A stretch of 64,000 bases of DNA from Flavitalea plasmicola. Its GTDB lineage: Bacteria > Bacteroidota > Bacteroidia > Chitinophagales > Chitinophagaceae. The position numbers were made by a program, and so were the translations under genes. The stretch lies in assembly GCF_030546645.1 (NCBI RefSeq), contig NZ_JAUOTO010000002.1, forward strand, positions 248,001 to 312,000, written 5' to 3'. Each line of letters starts with the position of its first letter. The first letter of the stretch is position 1. The notes below the pieces were generated by a model. That model ran no database searches. It was not told where the DNA came from and worked only from the letters and a program-made list of their open reading frames with translations. Shown in pieces: positions 4,956 through 22,500 of this stretch.

Positions 4956-6525
4956 TTATTTTGAATTCATATTGGAGGTGGTTTCCTTGATAGCTTCAAT
5001 AATACTTGTCGTAAGAGGCTTGTTGACATCTTTCATTCCTTGAAAAATATGTGTGAATGGGGTCCCTTGTGAAAACAAGAACGCGTGACCATATAATTCA
5101 TGGGATAATACTTGTGCTCCTCCTTCTTCACTAAGTCCAGAATTAATAATGACATGATTGACATTATCAGGAGAATTATGCCCTTTAGTATGAGCTGTAG
5201 CCAATGTAACTCCTAGAAACCCGGATTCCCCTGTTTGAGGGTCTAGTTTGCCAGGGGGACTATTTTTATCGATTATTACAGGCCCGAATTCATGAGGATG
5301 TATCTGATTATCCTTGTCTTTTGAAACAAAAGATTTTGCAAAAGAAACTTCAAACATTTTTTTGCTATTTACCAGTGCTTTAAGTTTGCTAAAATTCTTG
5401 CTACTGCTATTTGCGGAATTTATTAATGTCTTGTCAAGTTCACCTTTGTCATTCAGTTTTATGTATTTCTGATCTGCTTTACTCAATGTATTTTTAATTG
5501 CTGTTAATGCAGCGTTATCTATAGGTTTAACTGTCTCAGGCGCCATACCATCCGGATCAATAAATCTGACAGGGTCATCAAATCCATAATTATACGGGCT
5601 AAACCTACCCATTTTATCGGCCATTGGATCTATAACAGACCATCGCCCTATTTGCGAATCATAGAACCGCTTGCCATAATCATATTCCTCTAAGCCCGTT
5701 CCATCAATGAACTCCTTATTCTGCAATTCTTTTCCATTATAAAGATGCTTATTCTCGGAATATCCATACTTCAACGCCTTATCACTAATCCCCGCCATCG
5801 TCAACCCAAATGGGTAGTAATGTGTCTCTTCCAAAAGAGGTCCCCTTGTGTGGGTCACCTGTAAGTTGTCGAAGAACACATCAATATTGGGTGTGGTATT
5901 ATTAAGGTAAATATACAAATATCCACTCTTTGTGACCGGCAGATTCAGGCGAACGTGTTTCTTAAATTCCTGATCACTACCAACTTGCTCGAAACCACTG
6001 CCTTCTGCGACATAGTTGAATTGCTCATCGAAAAGCACCCAATTCACAAAAGCCTGGGGACGGCTATTATTGATCGATGCGTTCTGGTCCGACAGGAACT
6101 GCGTAATATTATTGCTCAACGGAGCACTTGGCCCGGATGCTGAACTGGTCGCCTGACATGACCTTTAGCGTGATACCCGGCCCGATCTTTGGCCCTGTAG
6201 TCCCCCCATTCAACCTGGCTACATTTTGGTTCGGATTTGTTGTAGTATCTGAGGGATATCCCGGCGGTATGGCTATCCGGGTATTACCTACCTGGCTGTA
6301 AAATAAATTTTCCGTAGCCGTGGCACCGGGTTCCATGGTGGCAGCAGGGTACCGGTCGGTCTGCTGTTCGTCAGTCAGCACCATCCGGGTATTGCCCAGG
6401 TGGTCCTTGATATAATAGTCATACTTGTAGGACGTCTTTGCTTGCCCACCCGTAGTGTCGGAGATCACGCGTACCCGCCCTTCTTCCTGTCCAAAAAACT
6501 GCAACGTGTCAGCTGCCTCTTGCAT
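4956..6525 (-). pseudogene. RHS repeat-associated core protein with metalloprotease-like C-terminus, frameshifted
   Basis: Two overlapping minus-strand frames together cover the C-terminal part of an RHS protein. Frame one (6525-6109) holds LQFFGQEEGRVRVI and DHLGNTRMVLTDEQQ and stops after [13 protein letters not shown]. Frame two, open to 4956, has no ATG where it takes over (TTG at 6119). It carries [52 protein letters not shown] and the core end [12 protein letters not shown]...[12 protein letters not shown]-terminal domain of about 190 residues follows, with [10 protein letters not shown] near the end. HELYGH has one residue more than classical HExxH. The N-terminal repeats are absent. 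The frameshift probably comes with a small internal deletion, since this part is shorter than I recall for related proteins. Confidence 0.75.
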
Positions 6526-6625
6526 CCTGCCCCAGTGGATAGCTTATTTTCCCTTCTGCCGATAGCGAACTAAACGAGATCAGGTCCCAGGTGCCGATCA
6601 ATTTAAATTTTAATATATTTTCCAT
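6509..6625 (-). pseudogene. Lipocalin-like gene, truncated after about 35 codons
   Basis: The ATG at 6625 overlaps the stop of the upstream alkene reductase (TAATG), so the two were translationally coupled. The frame reads LIGTWDLISFSSLSAEG and then ISYPLGQDA, the N-terminal signature of the lipocalin-like domain (PF13924, usually near 140 residues). It then runs into ARGS and a stop at 6509-6511. From there the DNA reads as RHS text in another frame. The remainder of the lipocalin is missing, so this is the end of the redox operon cut off by RHS DNA. Confidence 0.7.
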
Positions 6626-7731
6626 TATACCGGGATTGCCTGCTGTTTATAGAATGGATAGTCGGTATAGCCCTTCGCGCCGCCGCCATAGAAGGTGTCG
6701 CGGTCATATTTGCTCAGCGGAATATCGTTTTTGAAGCGGTAGACCAGGTCCGGGTTGGCGATAAAATGCCTGCCAAAGGCCACGAGGTCGGTATCACCTT
6801 TTTGCAGGATGTCTATTGCTTTCTCGTAATCAAACCCACCGGCTGCGATCATACGGCCCTTGAAAATCTTCCTCAAGTACATGCTGGCAACCGGCTCCAG
6901 TCCATGAGCGATCTCGATATTGCCTTTGATCCGTGGTTCTATGAGATGCAGATATGCCAGCCCGAATGCATTCAACTGTTCGGCGGCATAGGCGAACAGT
7001 CCGATCGGATCTTTGTCCGACATAGAATTAAATGTTCCGCTTGGTCCAAGCCGGACCCCTACCCGATCTGCACCCCAGACTTCTACGAGACGCTCGACGA
7101 TCTCCATCATGAAGCGGACGCGATTCTCCTCCGACCCGCCATACTGATCGGTCCGCTTATTGGAACCGTCTTGCAGGAACTGATCGACCAGATATCCGTT
7201 TGCACCATGCAGCTCGACACCATCAAAGCCGGCTGTCTTGGCCCGCTGGGCGGCCTTGTAATAGTCTTCGACAAGCGATTGGATCTCGTCGACCGACAAT
7301 TCACGGTTAAGGTCAGCGGGCACCCACCCGTCTTGCGTAAACACGAGGTCCTGGTGCGCAATGACCGAGGGGCCGATCGGCTGACCACCGCCGGGCTGCA
7401 GACTATGGTGCGATTCGCGACCTACATGAAAAAGTTGATTGAGCAGGATGCCACCTTTTTTGTGCACGGCCCCAGTGACCTTCTTCCATCCCTCGATCTG
7501 GTCATCTGTATAGATCCCTGGGGCACCGTAATAACCGTGACCGGTTTCATTGATTACCGTACCTTCAGTGATCATCAGCCCCCCGGGGGTCGCGCGCTGC
7601 CTGTAATATTCCACCATCAGCTCATTGGGAACAAATCCCGTTGTCGTACGCATCCGCGTTAGCGGCGGAAGGACGATCCGATGCGCCAGACTGAAGGCGC
7701 CTACCTGGATAGGTGTAAATAAGCTATTCAT
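6625..7731 (-). CDS. Alkene reductase, Old Yellow Enzyme family
   Basis: FMN-dependent NAD(P)H oxidoreductase (NemA/OYE type, 368 residues, full length) that reduces activated C=C bonds or nitro compounds in the cytosol. It shows the N-terminal strand FSLAHRIVLPPLTRMR, the substrate-binding HGAN in ELHGANGYLVDQFLQDGSNKRTD, GGSEENR and the C-terminal phosphate-binding stretch IAAGGFDYEKA...LVAFGRHFIANPDLV. It follows a paralogue by 21 bp and overlaps the truncated lipocalin gene by one base. It is probably transcribed from the sigma-54-like promoter near 11.94 kb. Confidence 0.93.
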   Translation of the reverse strand: MNSLFTPIQVGAFSLAHRIVLPPLTRMRTTTGFVPNELMVEYYRQRATPGGLMITEGTVINETGHGYYGAPGIYTDDQIEGWKKVTGAVHKKGGILLNQLFHVGRESHHSLQPGGGQPIGPSVIAHQDLVFTQDGWVPADLNRELSVDEIQSLVEDYYKAAQRAKTAGFDGVELHGANGYLVDQFLQDGSNKRTDQYGGSEENRVRFMMEIVERLVEVWGADRVGVRLGPSGTFNSMSDKDPIGLFAYAAEQLNAFGLAYLHLIEPRIKGNIEIAHGLEPVASMYLRKIFKGRMIAAGGFDYEKAIDILQKGDTDLVAFGRHFIANPDLVYRFKNDIPLSKYDRDTFYGGGAKGYTDYPFYKQQAIPV

Positions 7732-7752
7732 TCTTAATTTTTTACTGGTGAT

Positions 7753-8856
7753 TTAATCTTTATAAACCGGGAAATCAATGTACGCGTGCTCATCGCCACC
7801 CCAAAAAGCCTCGCGGACATATTTCGCCAGCGGATAGTCCATTCTTAGCCGTTCCGGCAGGTCCGGGTTCGAAGTAAAGCAGCGACCAAAGGCAACAAGA
7901 TCGGCATCGCCCTTTTGTAGGATGGCCTCTGCACCATTTTTGTCAAACCCGCCCGCGGCGATGATTGGCCCTTTGAAGATCTGGCGGAGAAAAGCAGCGG
8001 CCACCGGCGGCCGCCCTTCCTCCAGTGTTTCGGTTCCCATGACGCGGGGTTCGATGATATGCAGGTAGGCAAGCCCGTACCTGTTCAACCGCTGCGCATA
8101 GTAGCCAAATGTTGCCGCGGAATTGGAATCCGAGATCGCCCCCCATTTCCCGCTTGGTGAGATCCGCACGCCAACCCGGTCGCCCCCCCAAACGTCTACA
8201 AGCGCTTCGACCAGCTCAAGCGGAAACCTGACCCTATTCTCGATGATACCGCCATAGGCATCGGTGCGTTTGTTGGTGCCATCCTGTAAAAAAGTGTCCG
8301 CGAGATACCCATTGGCATTGTGCAGTTCGATTCCGTCGAAGCCGGCTTCCAGGGCCCGCCTGGCGGCAGCCCTGAATTGTTCAACCAGTGGCGGGAGCTC
8401 ATCGATGGCCAGCGCCCGATGTGGCGATACGGATACCCACCCCTTTGCAGTAAGCGCTAACCCTTCGAAAGGGACAACCGAAGGCGCGATCGGCGCCTTT
8501 CCGCCGCTAAGATCCGTATGCGATTGCCGGCCATCATGCGAAACTTGCAGAAAAACGAAAGCGCCTTTTTGATGCACGGCCGCCGCCAGTCTTTTCCACC
8601 CTTCCACCTGATCATCCCGGTAAAGGCCGGGCGCCCCGATATAGCCCCGGCTATCGATGGAAGGGTGAACGGATTCTGTGATCATAAATCCACCCAATGA
8701 AGCACGCTGCCGGTAATACTCGATCATCATATCGCTTACGCTGTCATCCGGATTTGCCCTAAGCCGCGTCAACGGTGGATGGACCACCCGGTGTTGAAGA
8801 GGCATGCGGCCTAATTGAAATGGAGAGAACAGGAGCTGCTTCATAGCCATGGTCAT
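7753..8856 (-). CDS. Alkene reductase, Old Yellow Enzyme family (second copy)
   Basis: A 367-residue FMN oxidoreductase paralogous to the next gene downstream. It keeps the active-site pair in ELHNANGYLADTFLQDGTNKRTD, the GGIIENRVRF loop and the FMN phosphate site IIAAGGFDKNGA...LVAFGRCFTSNPDLP. The start may be any of three close Met codons (8856, 8850, 8844); 8844 gives MKQLLFSPFQLG, the best match to the paralogue. The 9 bp gap from the upstream hydrolase and 21 bp to the next gene place it inside the operon. Two OYE copies side by side suggest different substrate ranges. Confidence 0.92.
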   Translation of the reverse strand: MTMAMKQLLFSPFQLGRMPLQHRVVHPPLTRLRANPDDSVSDMMIEYYRQRASLGGFMITESVHPSIDSRGYIGAPGLYRDDQVEGWKRLAAAVHQKGAFVFLQVSHDGRQSHTDLSGGKAPIAPSVVPFEGLALTAKGWVSVSPHRALAIDELPPLVEQFRAAARRALEAGFDGIELHNANGYLADTFLQDGTNKRTDAYGGIIENRVRFPLELVEALVDVWGGDRVGVRISPSGKWGAISDSNSAATFGYYAQRLNRYGLAYLHIIEPRVMGTETLEEGRPPVAAAFLRQIFKGPIIAAGGFDKNGAEAILQKGDADLVAFGRCFTSNPDLPERLRMDYPLAKYVREAFWGGDEHAYIDFPVYKD

Positions 8857-8865
8857 CGTTTTTTG

Positions 8866-9618
8866 TTAGTGTCCGACCTGTGTTGCAGCTGTTTCTATCA
8901 CTGCTGCGACTTCCTTTGGATGAGAGATGAATGCCACGTGACTGGCCTGGATCTCTGTGATTTTTGCATTTGCCCTTTTTGCCATAAAACGTTCTGCGTC
9001 CGGTGGGATCATCCGGTCCTGCGTAGATATGATCGCCCAGGTGGGTCTTCCTCTCCAGGCTGCCTTGGTCAACGGCGTTGTGAACGTAGCCAGACCCGAC
9101 GGTGTCTGCGAACTGGCCATGAAAGCAGCTTGAACATCGGGCAGATCGGGACAGAAATCCTTATGGAATTTGGCGACGTCGTACCAGATCAGGCCATCTA
9201 CGGGAGGCAAAAGGATACCGGATTCGGGATTGGGGGGACCGGATTTCAATAAGCCTATCAATGTCTCCCCGGCATCCGGTGCAAAAGCTGATACGTATAC
9301 CAGTCCGACGACGCTTGAGGTGTCCCCGGCCTCAGTGATCACGGCGCCGCCATAGGAATGGCCGACAAGGATGACGGGTCCAGTCTGGCGAGCGAGTACC
9401 GCCCTCACCGCATCCGCGTCGCCGGTGAGCGTTTGGTTGGCCGTGCCGACCACATCCACATGATAGCCTTTCGCTACAAGGATCTTATAGACCCCGTTCC
9501 AGCCCGAAACATCTGCCCAGGCGCCGTGGACTAACACAATGTTCTTTACTTGCGCCGAAGTGCATGCGGCTACTACAGTCATAAAGGACAGCAGAAGAAA
9601 ACTAATCTTTCGTTTCAT
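8866..9618 (-). CDS. Alpha/beta hydrolase lipoprotein
   Basis: A 250-residue alpha/beta hydrolase with a lipoprotein-type signal (VVAAC, Cys19). It shows the oxyanion region IVLVHGAWADVSGW, nucleophile elbow VGHSYGGA, a late acid in STQDRMIPPDAE and catalytic His in ASHVAFISHP. This matches the EstC/salicylate-esterase-like group often labelled alpha/beta hydrolase. It is unusual in this otherwise cytosolic operon because it should be exported and lipidated. Spacing is 39 bp from the upstream SDR and 9 bp to the OYE gene downstream. Confidence 0.88.
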   Translation of the reverse strand: MKRKISFLLLSFMTVVAACTSAQVKNIVLVHGAWADVSGWNGVYKILVAKGYHVDVVGTANQTLTGDADAVRAVLARQTGPVILVGHSYGGAVITEAGDTSSVVGLVYVSAFAPDAGETLIGLLKSGPPNPESGILLPPVDGLIWYDVAKFHKDFCPDLPDVQAAFMASSQTPSGLATFTTPLTKAAWRGRPTWAIISTQDRMIPPDAERFMAKRANAKITEIQASHVAFISHPKEVAAVIETAATQVGH

Positions 9619-9657
9619 GATCTTTGATTTTATTGTTTGTTTTGAGATTGAAATACT

Positions 9658-10398
9658 TTACCAGGGAATTTCCTGTCCCAGGTGAATAAACTTACCTGTT
9701 GGCCCATTTGCGGCGAGGAGTGCCAGCGCGACGCTGGTCTTCGCACCGTCGGCTATAGTCATCGGCGCCTGTTCGTTGCCGCCAAGTTCCGTCTGCACCC
9801 AGCCAGGATGGGCGGAGTTGACCTTTATTCCCATTGGGGCCAGGTCTGCCGCCAGCTGGATCGTAAACATATTAAGGGCCGCCTTGGCTGAGTTGTAAGA
9901 GAGCACGCGAAATCCTGCGATAGGGCTATCGGGTTGTGCGTGGACGGCCAGCGAACCAAGGATGCTGGAGAGGTTGACGATTCGGCCGGCCGGGCTTTTC
10001 TTTATAAGTGGCAGCAATTCCCTTGTCAGATGGACGATCGAAAAAAAATTGGTCCGATAAATGAAATCGAATTCCTCCTGGGTGGTTTCGGTCGTTTTGC
10101 TTACGAATAGCGTTTCTTTGGGTGCGACAACCGCATTATTGATCAGAATATCAAGTTTGCCGAAAGTCGTTGACAGGTAGTCGGCGGCAGCCCGGCGATC
10201 GGGGTCACTCGTGACATCAAGCTGGATGCCCCGGGCATCGATACCGTCGCCCGTCAGCCGTTCGGCGGTATCTATAGCATCCGCCAATTTTCGTGCCGCC
10301 AGGATGACGATCACGTCCTGTTCTCCCAGTTGTTTGGCAGTTTCGAACCCGATGCCGCGATTGCCGCCCGTGATAAGGGCTACACGTTGATTGGTCAT
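9658..10398 (-). CDS. Short-chain dehydrogenase/reductase
   Basis: Classical SDR of about 246 residues with the NAD(P) motif TGGNRGIG, the structural NNA motif (LINNAVV), catalytic Ser in NLSSILGS and the YxxxK pair in YNSAK, followed by HPGWVQTELGG. The ATG at 10398 (MTNQRVALITGG) is preferred; a Met two codons upstream is also possible. It probably reduces carbonyls or oxidises alcohols, with NADP(H) likely from ARK after the second strand. It lies in the middle of the redox operon. Confidence 0.92.
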   Translation of the reverse strand: MTNQRVALITGGNRGIGFETAKQLGEQDVIVILAARKLADAIDTAERLTGDGIDARGIQLDVTSDPDRRAAADYLSTTFGKLDILINNAVVAPKETLFVSKTTETTQEEFDFIYRTNFFSIVHLTRELLPLIKKSPAGRIVNLSSILGSLAVHAQPDSPIAGFRVLSYNSAKAALNMFTIQLAADLAPMGIKVNSAHPGWVQTELGGNEQAPMTIADGAKTSVALALLAANGPTGKFIHLGQEIPW

Positions 10399-10422
10399 AT
10401 ACAATTTTTATTGATGAATGGA

Positions 10423-11173
10423 TCAGGCCAGGATAAATGTTTTGCCCGCCTCGGGTATCTTCAGTCTGCTCCCCAAACCAAGCGCCATGAACGCCTGTCG
10501 AAGGGTTTCTCCGTTTTCAGAAAAATGCGACCAGCCTTCGAAGTGGACTGGGATGATCGTTGCATCGGGAAAAGCGAAAGCTGTATCCAGCGCGTCGTTG
10601 GCGGGGAAGTTTCGGTTTGGCAGCGCCGGCAAACAGGATCACGAATTGCGGCTTGAACCGGTCGGCAACCGCCTGGACTCCTTCGAAGAATACCGTATCG
10701 CCCGTCAGATAAATGGAGGGTTCTCCATTGTCGGGTGTGAGCATAAAACCCGTGACATCACCCGCGATCGCCTCGATCCCTGCCGGACCGTGCCGGGCGG
10801 GAGTGGCCGTTATCGCGAGCTGCCCGCCATCAGGTGTCGGGATAGAACAGGTTTCCCAAGGCGACAGCCCTTTGACGTTTCCGCCTAACCGGCCCGCCGC
10901 GGCCTTAGTGGAAACAGTCAGCGGGATGCGCATGACGAGTGCTTTCCCGGCTTTATCCAGGTTGTCGGCATGCTGGTCGTGACTAAGGAGTACCCCGTCA
11001 ATTTTGCCAATGTCCGAAAGTGCCGGTGCTGTCAATTTCTCGATCGTATCACCAGGTCCGGCAAGATAATTTCCGGGTGGGTCGAGTGTGGGATCTGTAA
11101 TCATCCGGAGTCCGGCGATCTCCAGGATCACTGTTGGGCCGCCTAAATAAATAAGCTTTGTTGCGTTTTTCAT
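10423..11173 (-). pseudogene. MBL-fold metallohydrolase, frameshifted near its C-terminus
   Basis: Starts at ATG 11173 (MKNATKLIYLGGPTVILEI). The UlaG-like MBL fold is visible: TDPTLDPPG, SHDQHADNLD as the zinc-binding HxHxD-like loop, ARHGPAGI and YLTGDTVF. Near 10625 the frame runs out of family text after ILFAGAA, while the expected C-terminus (PALPNRNFPANDALDTAF, then IIPVHFEGWSHF) continues in another frame to 10423. The junction lies at GCCGGCGCTGCC. The family usually has AA-R-V-PALP there, which could repeat this 12-mer, so a deletion between short repeats is a likely cause. It may be inactive or a sequencing error. Confidence 0.75.
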
Positions 11174-11177
11174 GTGA

Positions 11178-11903
11178 TTATTTTTTGCTGAATTCCAGCT
11201 CCAGGACATCGATGGAGACCATGACGGGATCGAGGTTAAACGAGCCGTCAGCATTCCGCAGGTAGATCCTGCGCGTGAATGGTACCATGAGACCATCCAC
11301 CTGTTTGAAATCGGAGACGTATTGAGAGGAGGGGACAGATTGCAGGATGTCCGGCGCGTAATCGTGACGCCTTAGCAGACCGTCCGGACCGTAGTAGAAG
11401 ATTTGGACGGCATTGTGCGTCTCTATATAATCGGGGAAGGTAACTTCCAGCCTTCTCCAGGTTTCACCCGCTTGCTGCCAGGGATCGAGCTCCCTGGTCG
11501 TATATCCGGGCAGGGTGAAGTTGAAAGGAGCGGTGAAGTAGGTCCACCAAGCGTAGTTGCTGAAGTAATGCGGCTGTAAGTCATTCCATTGCGTTTCCAG
11601 TTTTTCGCCATCGAACGAACGCCGCGGATTGAGCAACACTTCCTTCCGACCGTTATCTCCTTTTTTTAGCGTGAGCCTGGGCGGAGACCAAGTCGAAATT
11701 AAATACGGAGGTAACAGGGAGCAATAACCGGACAGCTGTTTGTGCGTGTTAGCTTCGAAGAATCCGTCGCTAAGCAACCCGGCTTTGCCTTTTATTTCCC
11801 AGATATGTCCAGCAACTTTTAAATGGGCTTTTATGTGGTCGAAATTATTCCACTGGTCGATGCCACCGTGGGCGGCAATGACCTCGTCGAGTAATGTGCT
11901 CAT
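11178..11903 (-). CDS. Conserved protein of unknown function, first gene of redox operon
   Basis: A soluble protein of about 241 residues with no signal peptide. It contains HIWEIKGKAGLLSDGFFEANTH, a beta-rich middle (WWTYFTAPFNFTLPGY, RRLEVTFPDYIETH) and YYGPDGLLRRHDYAPDIL. The pattern suggests a lipid- or ligand-binding beta fold, vaguely like outer-membrane lipoprotein-sorting domains, but I do not recognise the family. The ATG at 11903 (MSTLLDEV) is preferred over 11912 because the predicted sigma-54 transcription start lies only about 10-20 bp upstream. It is 4 bp from the MBL gene. Confidence 0.7.
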   Translation of the reverse strand: MSTLLDEVIAAHGGIDQWNNFDHIKAHLKVAGHIWEIKGKAGLLSDGFFEANTHKQLSGYCSLLPPYLISTWSPPRLTLKKGDNGRKEVLLNPRRSFDGEKLETQWNDLQPHYFSNYAWWTYFTAPFNFTLPGYTTRELDPWQQAGETWRRLEVTFPDYIETHNAVQIFYYGPDGLLRRHDYAPDILQSVPSSQYVSDFKQVDGLMVPFTRRIYLRNADGSFNLDPVMVSIDVLELEFSKK

Positions 11904-11929
11904 AACGATCATTTATTTGAGCTACATGA

Positions 11930-11945
11930 ACCCAATGGCGTGCCG
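11930..11945 (-). promoter_or_regulatory. Sigma-54-like promoter P1 (-24/-12)
   Basis: The minus strand reads CGGCACGCCATTGGGT, compared with TGGCAC-N5-TTGCW. The GG and CAC of the -24 element are present; the -12 element is weak (TGGGT). It is supported mainly by its exact placement, 53 bp below the upstream repeat at 11998-12022, the same distance as at P2 and P3. It would drive the operon from 11903 down to 6509. Confidence 0.5.
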
Positions 11946-11997
11946 CTTTTTCAAGTCGATGGTTTACATGTCATTGCTTTCGCATGCGGAAAATTTA

Positions 11998-12022
11998 TTT
12001 GTCTTATTTCGCTAAATCATCA
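11998..12022 (-). promoter_or_regulatory. Upstream activator repeat, copy 1
   Basis: A 25-bp element beginning TTTGTCTTATTTCGCTAA on the plus strand, 22 of 25 identical to copy 2 at 17479-17503 and related to copy 3 at 18093-18113. It lies about 80-105 bp upstream of the predicted P1 start, the usual place for an NtrC-type enhancer site. Confidence 0.6.
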
Positions 12023-12036
12023 GGTATGTTCGTCAG

Positions 12037-13428
12037 CTATTCGTCTAGGATATCCTTTGCGATACCAAACTTCTTCAGACGTGCTGCCAGCGTCGTAGGA
12101 GAAATATCCAGGAGTTTTGCCGCGCCGTCTATGCCGGAGATGCGGCCTTTGCAGAATTCGAGGGCTGCAAGAATGTGTTCCTTCTCTGCCTCACGAATGG
12201 TCTTGATAGCCTTTCCCAAGTTTGGCGAAACGACATTTAATATTTCTGTGGAAGGTATTTCGATGGACTCGATAATCTCCCCTTTGTTAGTGATCAGGCA
12301 TCTTTCAATAATATTTTCTAACTCGCGAATGTTACCAGGCCATGTGTATCCCTGCAAGGATTGCAGGGCGGCATGCGAAATTCGTTTCGGAGTTTTATGC
12401 ATCTTCACGCTCAGCATACGGATAAAGTGATCTACAAGTAACGGAATATCTTCCTTCCGCTCGCGAAGCGCCGGCATAGTAATGGGAAAGACATTCAATC
12501 TGTAATACAGGTCAAGTCGAAAGCTTCCTGCGGCGATGGCCCTTTCCAAGTTGCGATTGGTGGCAGCAATGATCCGGACATCCGTCTTTATTACCTTGTT
12601 GCTGCCGATCCTCACGACTTCTTTTTCTTGTAATACGTTGAGCAGTTTTACCTGCAATTCCAAGGGTATCTCACCAATCTCATCGAGGAAGATCGTCCCC
12701 CCGTCCGCCTGTTCGAACTTACCGATGCGGCGGTCGGTGGCGCCGGTGAAAGCGCCCTTCTCAAAACCGAACAGCTCAGCTTCGATCAGGGTCTCGGGGA
12801 TCGCAGAGCAATTGATCCTGACTAATGGCTTCGCCCTTCTTTCCGATCGCACATGAATAGCATGGGCCACCCTCTCCTTTCCAGTACCGCTTTCGCCGAG
12901 CAGCAGAACAGAAACGTCAAATGGAGCGACAGTCGCTATCTGCTCTTTCACCTTTTGGAAAAGGGGCGCCCTGCCGATCATGCCGTGGTCGACGAAGTCC
13001 ACGTCGGTAATAACCGGCTCTTTGAGAACTGTTTCTCTATGCAACTGCATTTTGATGTCGTGCTCGTGGCGGTATTTGGCGACTTCGAGCGTCACCAATA
13101 CGTCCTGCTCGCGAAAAGGCTTAACGAGAAATCCGAGGGGTCTCGTCGTACGCGCTTCCATTAGCACACTGTGATTGGAGTTGGCGGACACATAGATAAA
13201 AGGGATATTCCGCGCATTGAGAATGTTGGCCAGATCGACGCCCGTCTCCTGGCCCACCAGGTAAATATCCAGGAATACCCAGTCCGGACACTCGTTATCG
13301 ATCATTTGTAGCGCCTTCGTCACAGATGACGCAATGCCCGTTACGCTGTTGCCGGCTTGCTCCAGGATTATCTTGAGGGAACTGGCGATGATAAACTCGT
13401 CCTCGACGATCAATATTCTGGTTTCCAT
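12037..13428 (-). CDS. Sigma-54 dependent response regulator (NtrC family)
   Basis: A 463-residue activator. The receiver domain has phosphoacceptor D54 (FLDIYL) and K103 (LVKPF). The AAA+ domain carries Walker A GESGTGKE (178-185), the sigma-54 contact loop GAFTGA, Walker B GTIFLDEIGE and the arginine-finger region. A Fis-type helix-turn-helix sits at the C-terminus (GIDGAAKLLDISPTTLAARLKKFGI). It starts 5 bp after the histidine kinase stop, so the two form a two-component pair. It should bind an enhancer and open sigma-54 promoters; the 25-bp repeats nearby are the natural candidates. Confidence 0.95.
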   Translation of the reverse strand: METRILIVEDEFIIASSLKIILEQAGNSVTGIASSVTKALQMIDNECPDWVFLDIYLVGQETGVDLANILNARNIPFIYVSANSNHSVLMEARTTRPLGFLVKPFREQDVLVTLEVAKYRHEHDIKMQLHRETVLKEPVITDVDFVDHGMIGRAPLFQKVKEQIATVAPFDVSVLLLGESGTGKERVAHAIHVRSERRAKPLVRINCSAIPETLIEAELFGFEKGAFTGATDRRIGKFEQADGGTIFLDEIGEIPLELQVKLLNVLQEKEVVRIGSNKVIKTDVRIIAATNRNLERAIAAGSFRLDLYYRLNVFPITMPALRERKEDIPLLVDHFIRMLSVKMHKTPKRISHAALQSLQGYTWPGNIRELENIIERCLITNKGEIIESIEIPSTEILNVVSPNLGKAIKTIREAEKEHILAALEFCKGRISGIDGAAKLLDISPTTLAARLKKFGIAKDILDE

Positions 13429-13433
13429 AGTTG

Positions 13434-15749
13434 TTAGATTAACGCATGTTCTGCGGCCGGCCCTTGTACGTACGGCGCTGAAGTGTTAAAACAAAGGGTG
13501 ATACTTGTGCCGTCGTGCCCCTCGATTTGCACGCGTCCCTGGATCTGGTCTGTTAAACCGCGGATAAGATCCAGGCCCAGGGAGGACTGTCCTTGCGGGG
13601 AACGATATCCAGAGTAAAGTCCGATGCCATTGTCCCGGACTACAAGGACATAATTGTCGCCGTCGGAGACCCGTAATGAGATCGAGACCTTTCCCTGTCT
13701 GTCGTTCGGGAAAGCGTATTTTATGGAATTGGTTACGGCTTCGTTGATAGTAAGGCCCAGAGGAATGGCCATGCCGATGTCGAACACCACCGGGTCGATC
13801 TGGAAGTCAAAGGCGATATTGTCAATTCCCCGATGGCTTTCTCTGAGAAAGCTTACCAATTCCGTTATGTAAGAAAACATCTCGATGCTGGTCATATCCT
13901 CCGATTGGTAGAGTCGCTGATGAATAAGCGACATGGCCTGCAGCCGGTGCTGACTATTGCGGATTGCGGTTATAGCCTGTTCGTTCGTCAAATAGGTGGA
14001 CTGCATGTGCAGAAGACTGATCGTCGTTTGAAGATTGTTCTTCACCCGGTGATGGATCTCACGCACAAACCATTCTTTTTCCTTGAGCAGCAAACCCTGC
14101 CGGTAGTTCAGTGATTCAAGCGACAAGTTTTTTTCATCGATCTCTTTTTGATGCACCAGGAGCAAGCGGTTACTGCGTTGCTTTTGCCGAAAACCAATAA
14201 AAGCGAGGATAGCGATCACGAGCAGAAGACCACTGCCGACCAGGATAAGTCGCTTTTGCGCATTGGACCGGTTCAATTCGGCCTGGCGGACCTTGCCCTT
14301 CCCTTGCAGGTCTGTTATTGACGCTTCTTTTTGTTTTGTTTCATAACTGATCTCCAGTTCCTGGACCTGCCTGTTTTTGGTTGCATTGAAGATCGAATCA
14401 GTGAGTTGCTTGTATTGGGTATAGTGCCGGATAGCTGAAGTATAATTTCCCGCCGCGGAGTCCAATTTGAATTTGGCAAAATAGTATAGCCCAAGTTCAT
14501 CCGGCGCCAAGCTGGCGAACCGAACAACGCCGATGCTTTGCATCATTGATCTGGCCTTATTCAGGCGACCCATTTTGAGATACAGATCTACCAGGGACAA
14601 ACCCGTGCTCACAAGTTTGGCGGTGCCTAAAATGTCGTATCCGTCTTCGCCACTAAACAGACGCCGGGCATCAAAATAATATTTTTCAGCCGCTGCGAAT
14701 TGTCCCAACGTTTTGTAGCTCTCGACATATGCCGAATTTAAGAGTATGGAATAATAGGGGGACGCAGGCCAACCCGCCTTTGTGGATTCATCTAATAGTT
14801 GGATGCTCTCGCGGGCGTGACCTGTGTTCGCGAGCAAAATCGCTTTATCGACGAGTGCCTCAAAATAGTTTAATGAATCGAGATCGGTCCTTAGTTTATG
14901 ATGTAATACCTTATCAAAATAGTATAACGCCTTTTCGTTAAAACCCATCTTGAGGTAAACAGATCCTGTTGCCAGGGCATATTGCACGACAGCGGAAGTG
15001 TCACCGGAGTCATACATTGCTTGCATGCATTGTAGCCTGTATTGCAGCCATTTTTGCGGAAATCCCCTCAATCGGTACACGTGCGCCAGCAGATCATAGG
15101 AATCTTGCAGGTGCCGGAAACCAATCGATTTGTACCTGGTGACGACTTCCAGTAATTCCGTCTCCGCTGAATCCAGACGTCCCTGTGCGAGGTGGTTGTC
15201 AGCAAGGATCTCCAGCGTCCGAATGACTTCCTCTTGATATTGAGGCGATAGTTGCTCATACAGAGCGAGCGCTTTTACAAGACAGCAAGTTTTGTCCTGG
15301 TAATGGGTATAGACAAGACATTCAGCATACCGACGCCAAAGACGGGCTTCATTTGGTATATCCCCGATGCGTCGATAATAGTCCGCCACCTCCCGGAAAC
15401 AATTGCCACCCTTTGGTAGATCTTCGGCTCCGTTTGACTCTAAATAACAATCGGCCTTTAATTTTAGGGTTTCGTTCACCCAATAAGGTGAACCCAGGCG
15501 CCTGCTTAATGCCAATGCATCGTCCAGGTTCCCCATGGCACTGTCAAGATCGTCCTTGTAATTTCCGGGCTTGAAGATGTAATAGCCCGCGAGACGATTT
15601 AGCAACGCCACCCTATTTGTATCGGGTTTGCTTTTTGCCAGTAAAGGGAGAAGGTATCGCGGTGAATCATGTACCACCGGCTGTGAAAGGGCACTTGCCG
15701 ATAAGATCAGTACAAATAAAAGCACCACAGGCGACAGTATCGACTTCAT
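13434..15749 (-). CDS. TPR sensor histidine kinase (HisKA_2 type)
   Basis: A 771-residue kinase with a signal peptide (MKSILSPVVLLFVLILSASALS) and a long periplasmic alpha-helical TPR-like region (about residues 40-440). A membrane segment LILVGSGLLLVIAILAFIGF follows near residue 500. The HisKA_2 phosphoacceptor is REIHHRVKNNLQ, and the HATPase carries NEAVTNSIKYAF and RDNGIGL. It lies between two sigma-54 activators, 4 bp after one and 5 bp before the other, and most likely phosphorylates the receiver-containing one. The signal sensed is unknown; the TPR domain suggests a protein or peptide partner. Confidence 0.93.
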   Translation of the reverse strand: MKSILSPVVLLFVLILSASALSQPVVHDSPRYLLPLLAKSKPDTNRVALLNRLAGYYIFKPGNYKDDLDSAMGNLDDALALSRRLGSPYWVNETLKLKADCYLESNGAEDLPKGGNCFREVADYYRRIGDIPNEARLWRRYAECLVYTHYQDKTCCLVKALALYEQLSPQYQEEVIRTLEILADNHLAQGRLDSAETELLEVVTRYKSIGFRHLQDSYDLLAHVYRLRGFPQKWLQYRLQCMQAMYDSGDTSAVVQYALATGSVYLKMGFNEKALYYFDKVLHHKLRTDLDSLNYFEALVDKAILLANTGHARESIQLLDESTKAGWPASPYYSILLNSAYVESYKTLGQFAAAEKYYFDARRLFSGEDGYDILGTAKLVSTGLSLVDLYLKMGRLNKARSMMQSIGVVRFASLAPDELGLYYFAKFKLDSAAGNYTSAIRHYTQYKQLTDSIFNATKNRQVQELEISYETKQKEASITDLQGKGKVRQAELNRSNAQKRLILVGSGLLLVIAILAFIGFRQKQRSNRLLLVHQKEIDEKNLSLESLNYRQGLLLKEKEWFVREIHHRVKNNLQTTISLLHMQSTYLTNEQAITAIRNSQHRLQAMSLIHQRLYQSEDMTSIEMFSYITELVSFLRESHRGIDNIAFDFQIDPVVFDIGMAIPLGLTINEAVTNSIKYAFPNDRQGKVSISLRVSDGDNYVLVVRDNGIGLYSGYRSPQGQSSLGLDLIRGLTDQIQGRVQIEGHDGTSITLCFNTSAPYVQGPAAEHALI

Positions 15750-15753
15750 AGAT

Positions 15754-17349
15754 TCAACCTTTTTTCATAAATGCAAATTTTATCTTGAGTCTCCGCATCT
15801 TCGAATTAAGTGTACTGGAAGGGATGTTCAATTCCTCCGCCGCGCCACCCAGGCCAGAGACTTTACCCCGGCATTTCTTCAATACGGCTATAATGTGCTC
15901 CCGTTCCACCTGATCGATGGTCTTGATGCGCGCGTCCCCGGGCATTCGGTATTCGCTGCGCAACAGTTGCATCGGCAACTCGTTTATGATCTCGTTGTCA
16001 GGAAAGAGGGCGCAACGCTGCATCACGTTTTCGAGCTCACGCACGTTGCCCGGCCAACCATATGCCTGCAATTGTTTCATGGCGTTGCTGGAAAATCCAG
16101 GCGGGTGCTTAGGTCCTTTGGTGTGTTTGTGCAATAGATGCATGGCCAGGAATGGAATATCTTCTTTCCTGTCCCTTAGTGGCGGAATGCTGATCGGGAA
16201 AACATTCAATCTGAAATAAAGATCGCTTCTAAAATTTCCCTTGTGGACTTCTTGCAGCAGATCGCGGTTAGTTGCTGCGACGATCCGGACATTCACTTTT
16301 ATCAGATCCATTCCGCCAATGCGTTCTATTTCGCGTTCCTGGAGTACTCTCAGGAGCTTTGTTTGCAGAACGAGGGGCAGTTCGCCGATCTCGTCCAGGA
16401 AGATGGTGCCGTTGTTTGCCTGTTCGAATTTGCCGATGCGACGGTCGGTCGCGCCGGTAAAGCTGCCTTTTTCATGGCCGAAAAGCTCGCTTTCAATGAT
16501 CTCCGCGGGTAATGCTGCGCAATTGACTTTCACCATCGGTTTGTTTTTCCGGGGTGAGTTTTCATGCAAGGCCCGCGCGATCAGCTCTTTACCGGTTCCA
16601 GTCTCGCCCAGTATCAGCACGGAAGCGTCGGCTTGTGCGACTTCGGCTACCTGGTCGAACACATGCCGCATACTATCGCTGATGCCTATCATTTTACCAT
16701 ACACCGGGGATGGCATATGCTTGTCCGGCTTGAGCTGGTTTTTTGTTGGAAGAAGCGTTGGGCATATTTTGAGAGGCGACTGATCTTGTTGCGTCAGTTG
16801 ATAAAATCTGGGGGCGATGATCTTTGCGGCAACATGCAGGACCGCAATCGTACGAGGCCCGAATCCGCCCTTTTTGTTCGTCCGGAATGCGAGGAAGCCG
16901 ACAAGTATGGAGTAATTCCAGAATGGTATATAATAACTGTATTCGAATTCCATTTCCCTTTGAAATAGCCGGGAGTCTTTTTGGAGCATGCTTGTCCAAC
17001 GCGATCGGTGGAATTGTTTTGGTGTGCGAAAGGCGAAGCCGGCTATTTCGTCGTTTTGTTGCTGTAGAAGACTGATCTCGCCTTCATCCTGGTGCTTCGA
17101 CATTTTGCCATGCCGGTACGTCAAATGACTGTTGCCAGCGGAAGCCCGGCCAAGAAGAAGATCTGCCGTTTCAAAGTCGACGATGTCCTTAAGTGCAGTA
17201 ACTACTGTCGAGAAAAATCCGGACAGATCGGATATCGTAGAGATGGAAATCAGCAGTCCCAGAAGTTCCTCAGCTTTATTGTTTTCGATGACTTGCGACA
17301 AATGGAAATGGTCATTTTCACCATGTTCTATCTTTTCAAGCTTTTCCAT
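15754..17349 (-). CDS. Sigma-54 dependent activator with GAF-like sensor domain
   Basis: A 531-residue FhlA-like activator without a receiver. The N-terminal GAF-like domain spans about residues 30-200 (ISDLSGFFSTVVTALKDIVDF ... KIIAPRFYQL). The AAA+ domain has GETGTGKE, the contact loop GSFTGA (Ala to Ser relative to GAFTGA), GTIFLDEIGE and RSDLYFRLNVFPI. The Fis-type HTH is GLGGAAEELNIPSSTLNSKM. It is first in a three-gene operon with the kinase and the response regulator. Its own promoter region holds copy 2 of the 25-bp repeat, suggesting autoregulation. Confidence 0.94.
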   Translation of the reverse strand: MEKLEKIEHGENDHFHLSQVIENNKAEELLGLLISISTISDLSGFFSTVVTALKDIVDFETADLLLGRASAGNSHLTYRHGKMSKHQDEGEISLLQQQNDEIAGFAFRTPKQFHRSRWTSMLQKDSRLFQREMEFEYSYYIPFWNYSILVGFLAFRTNKKGGFGPRTIAVLHVAAKIIAPRFYQLTQQDQSPLKICPTLLPTKNQLKPDKHMPSPVYGKMIGISDSMRHVFDQVAEVAQADASVLILGETGTGKELIARALHENSPRKNKPMVKVNCAALPAEIIESELFGHEKGSFTGATDRRIGKFEQANNGTIFLDEIGELPLVLQTKLLRVLQEREIERIGGMDLIKVNVRIVAATNRDLLQEVHKGNFRSDLYFRLNVFPISIPPLRDRKEDIPFLAMHLLHKHTKGPKHPPGFSSNAMKQLQAYGWPGNVRELENVMQRCALFPDNEIINELPMQLLRSEYRMPGDARIKTIDQVEREHIIAVLKKCRGKVSGLGGAAEELNIPSSTLNSKMRRLKIKFAFMKKG

Positions 17350-17410
17350 TCCGCGGCAGTTAAGTGAGTGATCAGACTAAGTTACGCTATTATCGACCCA
17401 ACTAACAATA

Positions 17411-17426
17411 AACTATTTACATGCCA
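17411..17426 (-). promoter_or_regulatory. Sigma-54-like promoter P2 (-24/-12)
   Basis: The minus strand reads TGGCATGTAAATAGTT. The -24 element is good (TGGCAT); the -12 element TAGTT is poor. It lies 53 bp below repeat copy 2, matching the P1 and P3 geometry. It would drive the activator-kinase-regulator operon starting at 17349. Confidence 0.45.
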
Positions 17427-17478
17427 AAGTCTCAAACAATTGAACTTAAACGAATTACACTTTTAGCTGTCGACGTAA

Positions 17479-17503
17479 TTTGTTTTATTTCGCTAATTCG
17501 TCA
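17479..17503 (-). promoter_or_regulatory. Upstream activator repeat, copy 2
   Basis: Begins TTTGTTTTATTTCGCTAA on the plus strand. It differs from copy 1 at three of 25 positions. It is placed about 80-105 bp upstream of the predicted P2 start, between the regulator operon and the SnoaL-like gene. Confidence 0.6.
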
Positions 17504-17545
17504 CCTCCTGCAATGGAAACTGGTGCAAGCTCGGCTTTTTCAAGA

Positions 17546-17950
17546 CTACACCTCGCTGAATGCCGTCCCGAACATCGGGTTTCCGCTCGGAGATTCGTCT
17601 TTTCTGACCTCATTTTCGATCACATCCCAATGTTCGACCAATTTTCCTTCGCTCATCCGGATGATATCCGCCGCTATCCACGCTTTCGGCTGTCCAATGC
17701 CGCTGAATCTGCCGTGGACCATGACGATATCTCCCTCCGCGACTATCTGCCCCATCTCATACTTTAGGGATTTGGGTAATTGGGCGACCAATCTTTTCAG
17801 TCCATCTCGCCCTGGTGGAATATGTGCGCTGTGCTGGAGGTAATCTGACGACCAAAAACGCTCAAAGGCACTTTCATCTCTTTTGTTGAAAACGGCATCG
17901 AATGCTTCTTTGACGATTGCCTTGTTTCTTTCCTGAAGATTGTTTTCCAT
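17546..17950 (-). CDS. SnoaL-like (NTF2-fold) protein
   Basis: A 134-residue single-domain protein of the SnoaL/ketosteroid-isomerase-like superfamily. It has the N-terminal helix RNKAIVKEAFDAVFNKRD, then FWSSDYLQHSAHIPPGRDGL, EGDIVMVHGRFSG and SEGKLVEHWDVIE. Such proteins bind small hydrophobic molecules or act as isomerases or hydrolases, and the exact reaction cannot be read here. It is a single-gene unit preceded by the best sigma-54-like promoter in the window (P3), so it should belong to the same regulon as the redox operon. Confidence 0.85.
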   Translation of the reverse strand: MENNLQERNKAIVKEAFDAVFNKRDESAFERFWSSDYLQHSAHIPPGRDGLKRLVAQLPKSLKYEMGQIVAEGDIVMVHGRFSGIGQPKAWIAADIIRMSEGKLVEHWDVIENEVRKDESPSGNPMFGTAFSEV

Positions 17951-18023
17951 TTTAGTGAATTAAAAAGTTTAAGATTTATTGCCGGTCCAATCACGCGTTT
18001 GAAATGCCAGCGCATCGATATGT

Positions 18024-18039
18024 TACAACGAACGTGCCA
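18024..18039 (-). promoter_or_regulatory. Sigma-54-like promoter P3 (-24/-12)
   Basis: The minus strand reads TGGCACGTTCGTTGTA. It is a perfect TGGCACG -24 element with -12 element TTGTA, one mismatch from TTGCA. The predicted start is about 60 bp upstream of the SnoaL-like gene. It lies 54 bp below repeat copy 3. Confidence 0.65.
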
Positions 18040-18092
18040 ATGACACGCCTGTTTAGTATTCAATCAATTGGGTAATATGGCCGGCAGGAAGG

Positions 18093-18113
18093 CTTGTCTT
18101 ATATGATAAATCC
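18093..18113 (-). promoter_or_regulatory. Upstream activator repeat, copy 3 (diverged)
   Basis: The plus strand reads TTGTCTTATATGATAAATC from 18094. It shares TTGTCTTAT and TAAATC with copy 1 but is one base shorter in the middle. The inner part TTATATGATAA is a perfect dyad. It is positioned like copies 1 and 2 relative to its -24 element. Confidence 0.5.
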
Positions 18114-19515: not shown

Positions 19516-22500
19516 ATGCTAAACGCTATTATCAGCTTTTCCGTCAGGAACAAGCTCATCGTCGGCATCTTCATCCTGATACTCGTCGGCTGGGGGGCCT
19601 ACTCGGTAACCCAGCTGCCCATCGATGCCGTACCCGATATCACCAATAACCAGGTCCTCATCATAACCACCTCACCCAGCCTTGGCGCGCCGGATGTCGA
19701 ACGCTTTATTACTGTTCCGGTGGAACAGGCCACACGCAACGTTCCGGGCATCGTCGAACAGCGAAGCTTTTCCCGCTTCGGCCTTAGCCTGGTCACTATC
19801 GTATTTAACGACGCCACCGATGTCTACTGGGCCCGGCAGCAAGTCGGCGAACGGCTGGCACAGGCGCGGCAACAGATACCGGCCGGCATGGGCGATCCCC
19901 AACTGGGGCCGGTGACCACGGGCCTGGGTGAGATCTTTCAATATGCAGTTCGGCCCAAGCCGGGTTATGAAAGCAAGTATGACCTCAATGCCCTCCGGGA
20001 CATTCAGGACTGGATCATTCGACGGCAGCTGCTCGGAACGGAAGGTGTCGCGGACGTCAGCAGCTTTGGCGGAAAGGTCCGGCAATACGAAGTAACCGTC
20101 AATCCCGAACGGCTCAAGAGCTTCCAGCTCACTATTGCGGACGTTTATAAAAGCATCCAGGCAAATAACCAGAATGCCGGAGGCGCCTATATCGAGAAGG
20201 GCCCCAATGTGCTGTTCATCCGAACAGAAGGCCTGGCCGGCAGCCTGGACGACATCGGCAACATCGTCGTCAGACAGACCAATACCCGCATTCCCGTGCT
20301 TGTCAGGGACGTGGCCGACGTGCGCATGGGCAGCGCCATCCGCTATGGCGCCATGCTGTTCAATGACGCCGGCGAAGTATCCGGAGCCGTCGTCATGATG
20401 CTCAAAGGCGAGAACAGCAGCAAGGTGATCGGCAACATCAAGCGAAAGATCAAAGAGATCGAGAAGACCCTGCCCGAAGGGACCGTCATCGAACCCTTTC
20501 TCGACCGCAGCAAGATGGTCGGCAACGCGATCACTACCGTCGAGCATAACCTCCTGGAAGGCGCCCTGATCGTTATCGGGGTACTCATCCTCTTTCTCGG
20601 CAATGTCCGTGCGGGCCTGCTCGTCGCCTCTGTCATCCCACTATCCATGCTCTTTGCTATCATCATGATGAACATCTTCGGCGTCAGCGGCAACCTGATG
20701 AGCCTGGGCGCGCTTGACTTCGGCCTGCTGGTGGACGGCGCGGTCATCATCGTTGAGGCTGTAATTCATAAGTTGTCGCATGGACGCGTCCTGGGTCAGG
20801 CAACCACCATCGACCAGGGACAAATGAACGAAGCCGTGGAAGTCTCGGCCGGGAAGATGATGAGCAGCGCGGTCTTCGGCCAAGTCATCATCCTGATCGT
20901 GTATCTGCCGATCCTCTCCTTACGGGGCATCGAGGGTAAGATGTTCCGCCCCATGGCCGAAACCGTCTCCTTCGCTATTATTGGCGCTTTTTTATTATCG
21001 CTGACCTATGTGCCAATGGTGAGCGCCCTCTTCCTCAGCAAAAGACTGAACCACAGGAAAACCATCTCAGACCGCCTCATCGAATGGTTGCTCCGCATCT
21101 ATCGGCCCCTTTTGAAAATCGCCCTGCGCGGGCCACGTTGGGTAATAACGGCCGCCGTCGTGGTGTTCGCCTTCTCCGTGTTCCTGCTAACCCGGCTGGG
21201 CGGGGAGTTCATCCCGCAGTTGGAGGAAGGCGACTTTGCCGTCGACACCCGGCTACTCACCGGCTCTTCCCTCACCCATACCATCCGGACCACTCAGCAA
21301 TCCGCCAGAATATTACTGGACAGCTTCCCCGAAGTTGAAAAGGTCGTTACCAAGATAGGCTCCGGAGAGATACCTACGGACCCCATGCCGCTGGAAGCGG
21401 CGGACATGATGGTGATCCTGAAGCCCAAAGCTCAATGGAAAAGCGCTGCCAGCTTTCCCGAGCTCGCCAATAAAATGAGCGCCGCCCTGGAAGAGGTGCC
21501 GGGTATCGCTACGGGCTTCCAGTTCCCCGTCCAAATGCGCTTCAACGAGCTGATGACAGGCGCCCGCCAGGACGTAGTCTGTAAGATCTTCGGCGATGAC
21601 CTCGATACGCTGTCGCATTACGAAGAAAAGCTGGGTCGCATCATTCAAACCGTGAAGGGCGCCCGAGACCTTTATATGGAGACGGTCACAGGGGTGCCCC
21701 AACTCGTCATCCGGCATAACCGCGCCGCTATGGCCAGCTACGGCGCTTCGATCAGCGATGTCAACAATACCATCCAGTCCGCCTATGCCGGTGCTGCCGC
21801 CGGCCTTGTCTTCGAGGGTGACCGACGGTATGATCTGGTCATTCGCATGCAGGAAAACTGGAAACGGGACCCGGCGAACATTGGTAATCTGCCTGTCGGT
21901 CTGTCCAACGGAGATCAGGTGCCCCTTAGTACCCTCGCCATGGTAGCGATCCAGGACGGCCCTTACCAGATCCAGCGCGAAGATGCGCACCGGCGCATTT
22001 CAGTTGGCTTCAACGTGCGCGGCCGGGATGTACAAAGCATCGTCCAGGAGCTGCAGGAAAAAGTCTCGCGCGAGCTGCACCTTCCCGCAGGATACTATAT
22101 CACCTATGGCGGTCAGTATGAGAACCTGCAGGCAGCCAGCCGCCGGCTGAGCATCGCCCTGCCCATTGCCTTGCTGCTGATCTTTCTCATGCTCTTCTTT
22201 GCCTTTGGCCGCATCAAATACAGCCTGCTCATCTTCTCCGCCATTCCATTGTCAGCCATCGGTGGCGTCCTGGCCCTATGGGCAAGGGGGATGCCATTCA
22301 GCATTTCGGCCGGCGTGGGCTTCATTGCGCTATTCGGCGTAGCGGTCCTCAATGGCATCGTCCTGATCAGCGAGATGAACAGGCTGAAGGAACAGGGCAT
22401 GGGCGATGCCCGCAAGATCATCTTCTATGCGACGGAGGTCCGGCTCAGACCCGTATTAATGACCGCCGCTGTGGCCTCCCTCGGTTTCCTCCCCATGGCG

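Follow-up and report, generated by a model that had tools for sequence, protein, structure and literature searches.

Do the three repeats that lie upstream of TGGCAC-like sequences in this part of the Flavitalea plasmicola genome mark a small sigma-54 regulon, and does that regulon include the genes of its own regulators? The stretch analyzed, called the window below, is 64,000 nt long (contig NZ_JAUOTO010000002.1, positions 248,001 to 312,000; G000:C12:248001-312000) and is part of an 8.73-Mb genome. An earlier note on this DNA had proposed that two sigma-54 activators encoded here control three units, their own operon among them, through a repeat placed at a set distance upstream of each promoter. 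The parts of this system, the elements, their geometry, their near-uniqueness in the genome, and their conservation across gene rearrangement were computed directly; on these grounds of sequence, a local, self-amplifying sigma-54 regulon is very probably what the locus encodes.

The two closest repeats (window positions 11998-12022 and 17479-17503) are identical at 22 of 25 bases, and the minus-strand TGGCAC-like boxes begin at 11945, 17426, and 18039, all as the earlier note had it. By eye, the similarity of the two repeats ends at the element borders. The GG-N10-G[CT] pattern of sigma-54 promoters is present as GG-N10-GT in the boxes at 18039 and 17426, with the box at 11945 deviating as GG-N10-GG; that at 18039, with one mismatch to TGGCACGN4TTGCW, is the best in the window. 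The elements and boxes are:

11998..12015, minus strand: element 1, predicted upstream activating element, TTAGCGAAATAAGACAAA; precedes the LIPO-MBL-SDR-ABH-OYE2-OYE1 operon and starts 69 bp before the -24 box
11929..11946, minus strand: -24/-12-like box of this redox operon, GCGGCACGCCATTGGGTT; weak -12, with GG instead of the usual GC/GT
17479..17496, minus strand: element 2, predicted upstream activating element, TTAGCGAAATAAAACAAA; precedes the activator-kinase-regulator operon and starts 69 bp before the -24 box
17410..17427, minus strand: -24/-12-like box of the activator-kinase-regulator operon, TTGGCATGTAAATAGTTT
18093..18110, minus strand: element 3, diverged, TTTATCATATAAGACAAG; precedes the SnoaL-like gene and starts 70 bp before the box
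18023..18040, minus strand: -24/-12 box of the SnoaL-like gene, TTGGCACGTTCGTTGTAA; the window's best consensus match

The genes that these elements precede, with the names used below, are:

17546..17950, minus strand: SnoaL-like protein, 134 aa (Pfam PF07366, PF12680)
15754..17349, minus strand: GAF54, AAA+ sigma-54 activator with HTH_8 and a GSFTGA loop; N-terminus GAF-like by guess only
13434..15749, minus strand: TPRHK, TPR-HisKA_2-HATPase sensor kinase
12037..13428, minus strand: RR, receiver-AAA+-HTH_8 sigma-54 response regulator with a GAFTGA loop
11178..11912, minus strand: LIPO, 244-aa protein of no Pfam or NCBIfam family, predicted DUF1329/LolA/LolB-like half-barrel
10517..11173, minus strand: MBL-fold hydrolase; longest open reading frame (ORF) begins at 11296, C-terminal part in another frame
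9658..10404, minus strand: SDR, short-chain dehydrogenase/reductase
8866..9618, minus strand: ABH, alpha/beta hydrolase (Abhydrolase_6)
7753..8856, minus strand: OYE2, old yellow enzyme family flavin oxidoreductase
6625..7731, minus strand: OYE1, old yellow enzyme family flavin oxidoreductase

By our reading the redox operon (6625-11912) has six genes, not the seven counted in the earlier note.

The element is nearly confined to these sites. In the whole genome, its 17-base core TWAGCGAAATAARACAA occurs without mismatch only at the two window sites and with one mismatch at one more (C15:90203). Up to three mismatches there are 76 matches, versus 98 for a reversed control, so only near-exact copies are informative. 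When the core is combined with GGCA-N8-GY at the fixed distance, the window sites match at zero and one mismatch and nothing else in the genome does at one or fewer; looser searching adds one place at two mismatches and seven at three, with 13 in total for the reversed control.

The strongest evidence comes from loci in Mucilaginibacter where the same genes stand in a different order. A LIPO search led to L205, in a metagenome-assembled genome of this genus, which carries nine of the ten cluster genes rearranged into several units, with amino acid identities to the window of 60-67% (RR), 46% (TPRHK), 66% (GAF54), 71% (LIPO), 62% (MBL), 76% (SDR), 78% (ABH), 73% (OYE1), and 79% (OYE2), and in the same stretch CMD, EthD, and ADH genes. 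Five of its units bear the element: LIPO-MBL-SDR, alpha/beta hydrolase-EthD, SDR-CMD-Lipocalin_5, GAF54, and kinase-RR. In all five a GG-N10-G[CT]-like box starts 67-69 bp downstream of the element start (69-70 in the window). A degenerate element derived from the window pair and these five copies has no other exact match in the 6.5-Mb L205 genome; at one mismatch there is no excess (67 in all, versus 76 for the control). A second genome of the genus, L327, encodes OYE1 (truncated where the stretch ends), an alpha/beta hydrolase, SDR, MBL, GAF54, kinase, and RR at 40-82% identity, with LIPO at only 39%. Scored with an element matrix built without it, L327 has six elements at 16 or above (shuffles 0.1; background 13 in 751,539 bases of 40 RR loci, or about 0.34 per 20 kb). 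For five of the six the best box among offsets -62 to -75 is at -67/-68, one of low score (5.1), and these five precede ABH, MBL-SDR, GAF54, the LIPO gene region, and a kinase gene.

The elements have thus stayed with their units despite changed gene order, which is hard to explain without function. The earlier note had named as grounds for abandoning its reading that orthologous loci should keep neither the repeat nor the -24/-12 geometry; the comparison was run, and L205 and L327 keep both. Sigma-54 control of the regulators by themselves gains support in particular because the element also precedes an activator gene and a kinase gene in both genomes. Control of all three units is supported for the regulator and redox operons, whose elements recur there, and is less certain for the SnoaL promoter, no homologue of its gene having been seen there.

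The gene set as a whole does not travel as one unit, an idea we rejected: of 80 LIPO loci (L205-L284) only L205 has the set, without SnoaL, and seven have a regulator of this kind in the stretch (L327 was found by the later search of the genus). LIPO itself is found at E <= 1e-60 in seven of 149 Mucilaginibacter genomes, that of L205 included. In one of the five other LIPO loci of the genus, L325, the elements are accompanied by boxes at -68 and -69, and the rest lack an element with a good box. Beside L205 there is a sixth element-like site (L329:12141, plus strand, TTAGCGATATAAAGTAAC); it has a box at -70 and precedes a gene at the cluster's edge whose 132-aa product matches no Pfam family. 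L205 also carries a 25-base palindrome, ATCGAAATAACCTGGTTATTTCGAT (L205:17717-17863), in the gap that separates OYE1 from a divergently oriented regulator gene of the GntR/aminotransferase type; it is probably the site of a different regulator.

A related pattern appears around related activators more widely. In a first set of 20 loci, from the same genome and from relatives, TGGCACGN4TTGCW at up to two mismatches lies upstream of 14 of 221 genes (2.75 expected in shuffles), and when the regions preceding such boxes were compared locus by locus, an 18-base palindrome emerged, TTWRCGA-N4-TCGYWAA. Among 59 candidate promoters it is perfect in five and present with up to two mismatches in seven (shuffles 0.3); the five are three distinct sites, those in L082 and L086 lying between divergent genes and being seen from both sides. 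Counted from the first T of TTGGCA, and with up to four mismatches allowed, the palindrome has its start at exactly -69 in eight of the 59, a partly circular tally that includes the window's own two, with no other offset reached more than twice. Window elements 1 and 2 are three mismatches from it, the left arm intact and the right arm worn (ATAARAC). The genes downstream in this set include those for AraC regulators, alpha/beta hydrolases, an SDR, a DJ-1/PfpI protein, a lectin, a kinase, and an activator. A tandem palindrome lies about 30 bp further upstream in L073, L081, L082, L086, L138, and L152; the spacing, about three helical turns, looks in L152, L138, L082, and L086 as if two activator dimers docked side by side. 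L073 (G000:C13:283992-284041) is in the same genome as the window and has its two tandem sites at a paralogous activator gene, the second being the only perfect 18-base palindrome of that genome. As a genome-wide marker the symmetric dyad was discarded (137 places at up to two mismatches in the window's genome, versus 324 for the control).

The distance rule was then examined on independent material, in a test declared in advance, on 40 loci around RR orthologues not used before (of about 60 full-length rows). Among 124 candidate promoters, dyads with up to two mismatches number 12 in the declared offset range and 13 over all 130 offsets; ten of these start at -69 to -71 and one at -101, and the reversed palindrome gives one match. 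The ten promoters fall in nine of the 40 loci. At three mismatches, 15 of 22 dyads start at -69 to -71 (reversed control ten in total). Of the genes downstream of the 11 dyad promoters listed, six encode AraC-type regulators; the other five encode a DUF1275 protein, a ferritin-like protein, a HisKA_2 kinase, an epoxide-hydrolase-like protein, and an RR. The window's gene order, activator-kinase-regulator, is found again in loci such as L134, L169, and L177, accompanied by a divergent AraC gene, and L169 and L177 have hydrolases near these genes.

Alpha/beta hydrolases are in fact frequent neighbors of such activators. A hydrolase profile, two of whose ten source proteins came from test loci, gave 40 matches in 25 of the 40 test loci and none in 15 control loci, a set that leaves aside the three chance-pattern loci L137-L139, in one of which a hydrolase follows a dyad. 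A better test is the whole-genome Abhydrolase_6 list: in the window's genome, 11 of the 25 best genes have one of the 12 listed activators within 12 kb, where 0.65 would be expected (P ~1e-11); the count is ten without the window's own, and six at 5 kb and nine at 8 kb; the radii were picked after the lists were seen, and 12 of 15 activator matches were used.

The proteins needed for sigma-54 control are encoded. The genome has two genes with Sigma54_DBD above cut-off (rpoN) and, at E <= 1e-60, activator paralogues in at least 12 places (12 of 15 matches listed). Both window activators contain the Sigma54_activat AAA+ domain (PF00158, E 1e-73 and 3.5e-71), a Walker A motif, and, as expected of enhancer-binding proteins, a sigma-54 contact loop, GAFTGA in RR and GSFTGA in GAF54. 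A Fis-type HTH_8 at both C-termini, with upstream sites at fixed distance, places them in the NtrC class, DNA binding being predicted; the HisKA_2 and HATPase domains of the kinase and the receiver of RR are those of a two-component system, for which phosphotransfer is likewise predicted. A GAF domain in GAF54 could not be demonstrated: the N-terminus has no Pfam match, and the structure model is poor there. Both activators may read the same site, because the palindrome is found with either type alone in the stretch (RR without GAF54 in L147, L152, and L168; GAF54-type activators without RR in L082 and L086) and because their HTH segments are alike.

A number of observations weigh against a regulon of this kind or against parts of it. 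Relatives often lack the pattern: no dyad at -69 to -71 was found in 31 of the 40 loci of the independent test; LIPO homologues are encoded in seven other genomes of the same family, in two of them next to such activators but with no clear element (L157, L161) and in a third, G262, about 10 kb from an activator; and no element was found upstream of OYE1 in L205 or of OYE2 in L328. A family-wide scan for dyads of fixed geometry gave 25 matches versus 18 for the reversed control, most of which may be chance. It was kept only as a source of loci, seven of the 25 being within about 8 kb of such an activator (one in the window's genome); a -69 tally over the loci derived from it was not counted, being circular for seven of its nine, these seven coming from loci that had been fetched by a -69 dyad. 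Some boxes are poor: in the L205 kinase unit the best-scoring box is at -79, that at -68 being second, and scores are low for L205 SDR (6.9), L205 GAF54 (5.5), and L327 GAF54 (5.1). The GAF54 of L205 (L205:5343-7547, minus strand) has GSFTDA where GAFTGA is expected and may therefore not contact sigma-54, which hints at a partner rather than a remodeller there; which of the two activators binds is a less certain part of the reading. In the window itself the redox-operon box has a poor -12, and the boxes at 11945 and 17426, with three mismatches each to TGGCACGN4TTGCW, are matched by about 70 other window sites, so that sequence alone does not single them out; the element at a fixed distance is what raises them above the rest. 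The weakness of these two boxes taken alone also counts in favor of a different account, in which the repeats serve as binding sites for some other regulator, such as one of AraC or TetR type, the TGGCA boxes are coincidental, and transcription is by sigma-A. AraC genes do often adjoin such modules in relatives, and there is a TetR gene in L205 with a homologue in L327, but the ten cluster genes put through family search include activators and no AraC or TetR gene. Coincidental boxes would also have to account for a distance held at -67 to -70 in three genomes and for the ten independent promoters, in nine of 40 loci, with dyads at -69 to -71; and the 200 bp that precede each of the three genes contain no exact TAnnTTTG, the sigma-A -7 box, with one-mismatch versions at two genes only. 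We consider this account improbable.

More of a contender, although still unlikely, is that only the regulator and redox operons are controlled, the SnoaL-like gene having an ordinary or different sigma-54 promoter and the third copy (18093) being chance. That copy matches the repeats at 16 of 25 bases, as well as several unrelated places in the window do; over the 18-base element it shares 12 bases with them, and similarity to the pair, over six offsets, gives P 0.015. No SnoaL homologue was seen in L205 or L327. Scoring by similarity to the pair is weak, however, and was replaced by a matrix made from the seven other elements with the third copy excluded, which over five offsets gives P 0.0007; the copy keeps the seven positions invariant in all eight aligned elements of the window and L205 (A7, A9, T10, A11, A12, A14, C15), and it lies at -70 from the window's best -24/-12 box. 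The 22 of 25 identity between the other two copies could conceivably reflect a recent, functionless duplication of promoter DNA, but a similarity confined to the element, and an element kept in L205 and L327 before differently ordered units, leave this barely credible.

If the locus is a self-amplifying sigma-54 regulon, it would most likely work as follows. The TPR-HisKA_2 sensor kinase would receive a signal and phosphorylate the receiver of RR, and GAF54, the activator of the same operon without a receiver, would add another input. RR, GAF54, or both would bind the asymmetric element (consensus TTAGCGAAATAAAACAAA, a version of TTWRCGA-N4-TCGYWAA with one arm worn), which starts 67-70 bp before the -24 box and lies about 85 bp ahead of the transcription start. 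From there the bound activator would remodel the sigma-54 form of RNA polymerase at the promoters of the regulator operon, of the six-gene OYE/SDR/hydrolase operon, and, less surely, of the SnoaL-like gene. The regulator operon would thereby be amplified by positive feedback and the enzyme units induced, and as the output small reactive or xenobiotic molecules would be reduced and hydrolyzed. Binding, phosphotransfer, the choice of activator, the signal, and the substrates are the parts that we infer. The enzymes (ene-reductases, SDR, alpha/beta hydrolase, and MBL hydrolase, with CMD, EthD, and ADH in L205) fit a role in modifying reactive carbonyls, quinones, lactones, or esters, and the physiological role may be the processing of electrophilic or xenobiotic molecules.

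As to the individual proteins, OYE1 and OYE2 belong to PF00724, both below the 403-bit cut-off of the N-ethylmaleimide reductase subfamily (PRK10605; 374.1 and 315.8 bits). LIPO, called lipocalin-like in the earlier note, has no Pfam match, and its predicted fold is nearest DUF1329/LolA/LolB proteins; from alignment and leader length its start is probably at 11903. Its family, of about 240 aa and predicted to be LolA/LolB-like, crosses phyla, with 338 encoding stretches in the genome collection. At window positions ~10590-10625 (minus strand) the C- and N-terminal parts of MBL are in different frames, and the L205 homologue is continuous; the gene is therefore frameshifted here, or the assembly is in error. 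Elsewhere in the window, by eye, a 1459-aa ORF (19516-23895, plus strand) looks like a fusion of a CzcA-type RND efflux pump with a TolC-like outer membrane component, and beside the OYE operon (4956-6525, minus strand) there are fragments resembling the C-terminal core of an Rhs/YD-repeat protein.

NtrC binds palindromic upstream sites. Like the window, the NtrB-NtrC and ZraS-ZraR systems pair a kinase with a receiver-AAA+-HTH activator and -24/-12 promoters, and RR aligns nearly end to end with ZraR and AtoC models; the window differs in its HisKA_2 kinase with a TPR sensor, its second activator in the operon, and its enzyme targets. The best-scoring models for GAF54 are NifA (over AAA+) and NorR and FhlA (over AAA+ and HTH), from which it differs in its N-terminus without Pfam match and in acting beside a response regulator, and whose cut-offs are far off. 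Scores stay below the NCBIfam equivalog cut-offs for NtrC, ZraR, NifA, NorR, and FhlA, the best being GAF54 to NifA (374.2 versus 528.85 bits), with RR to ZraR at 358.3 versus 760.

Two enhancer binding proteins acting on one sigma-54 promoter are described in the available passages on Vibrio fischeri (PMC10162802); unlike that pair as described there, the window's two activators share one operon, itself a predicted target. Genome-wide studies of sigma-54 and activator regulons, again from the passages available, concern other phyla (Desulfovibrio, PMC4641369; Clostridiales, PMC6615313). Within the Bacteroidota, the passages on the sigma-54 regulon of Flavobacterium psychrophilum give mapped starts with a -24/-12 motif (SM4), targets among chaperones, envelope stress, and gliding, and three proteins with a sigma-54 interaction domain; activator sites are not described in them, unlike the element of the window (PMC9723704). 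Neither the F. psychrophilum passages nor those of a cross-phylum promoter survey (PMC12316311) mention the element or the gene set, and by title no paper on this element or module was found in the open-licence PMC literature. The individual parts are of known kinds, the system that they form is well supported, and the family-wide rule of element and distance is new to us.

A bolder extension, which we offer tentatively and think somewhat doubtful as a whole, is that this branch of the Bacteroidota carries portable local regulons: a large paralogous family of sigma-54 activators, seen in the window's genome at those dozen or more places, would have spread in this form, each regulon including an alpha/beta hydrolase, an SDR, or enzymes of a similar kind. 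The regulons would share a palindrome half-site and a fixed -69 (and approximately -100) geometry, with minor sequence differences, of which the worn right arm is an example, insulating them. Within one operon, the phosphorylated regulator and the ligand-type activator would either compete for a common site or assemble on it together, as a two-signal gate with positive feedback.

Little on sigma-54 control in environmental Bacteroidota was found in the open-licence PMC literature, yet this one genome has at least 12 such activators. A conserved element at a fixed distance from the -24 box is a testable recognition rule that links orphan activators to their target enzymes, and it draws attention to sets of hydrolase, reductase, and OYE genes for which inducers could be sought by screening. 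It also makes a concrete question of how closely similar activators avoid cross-talk in one cell.

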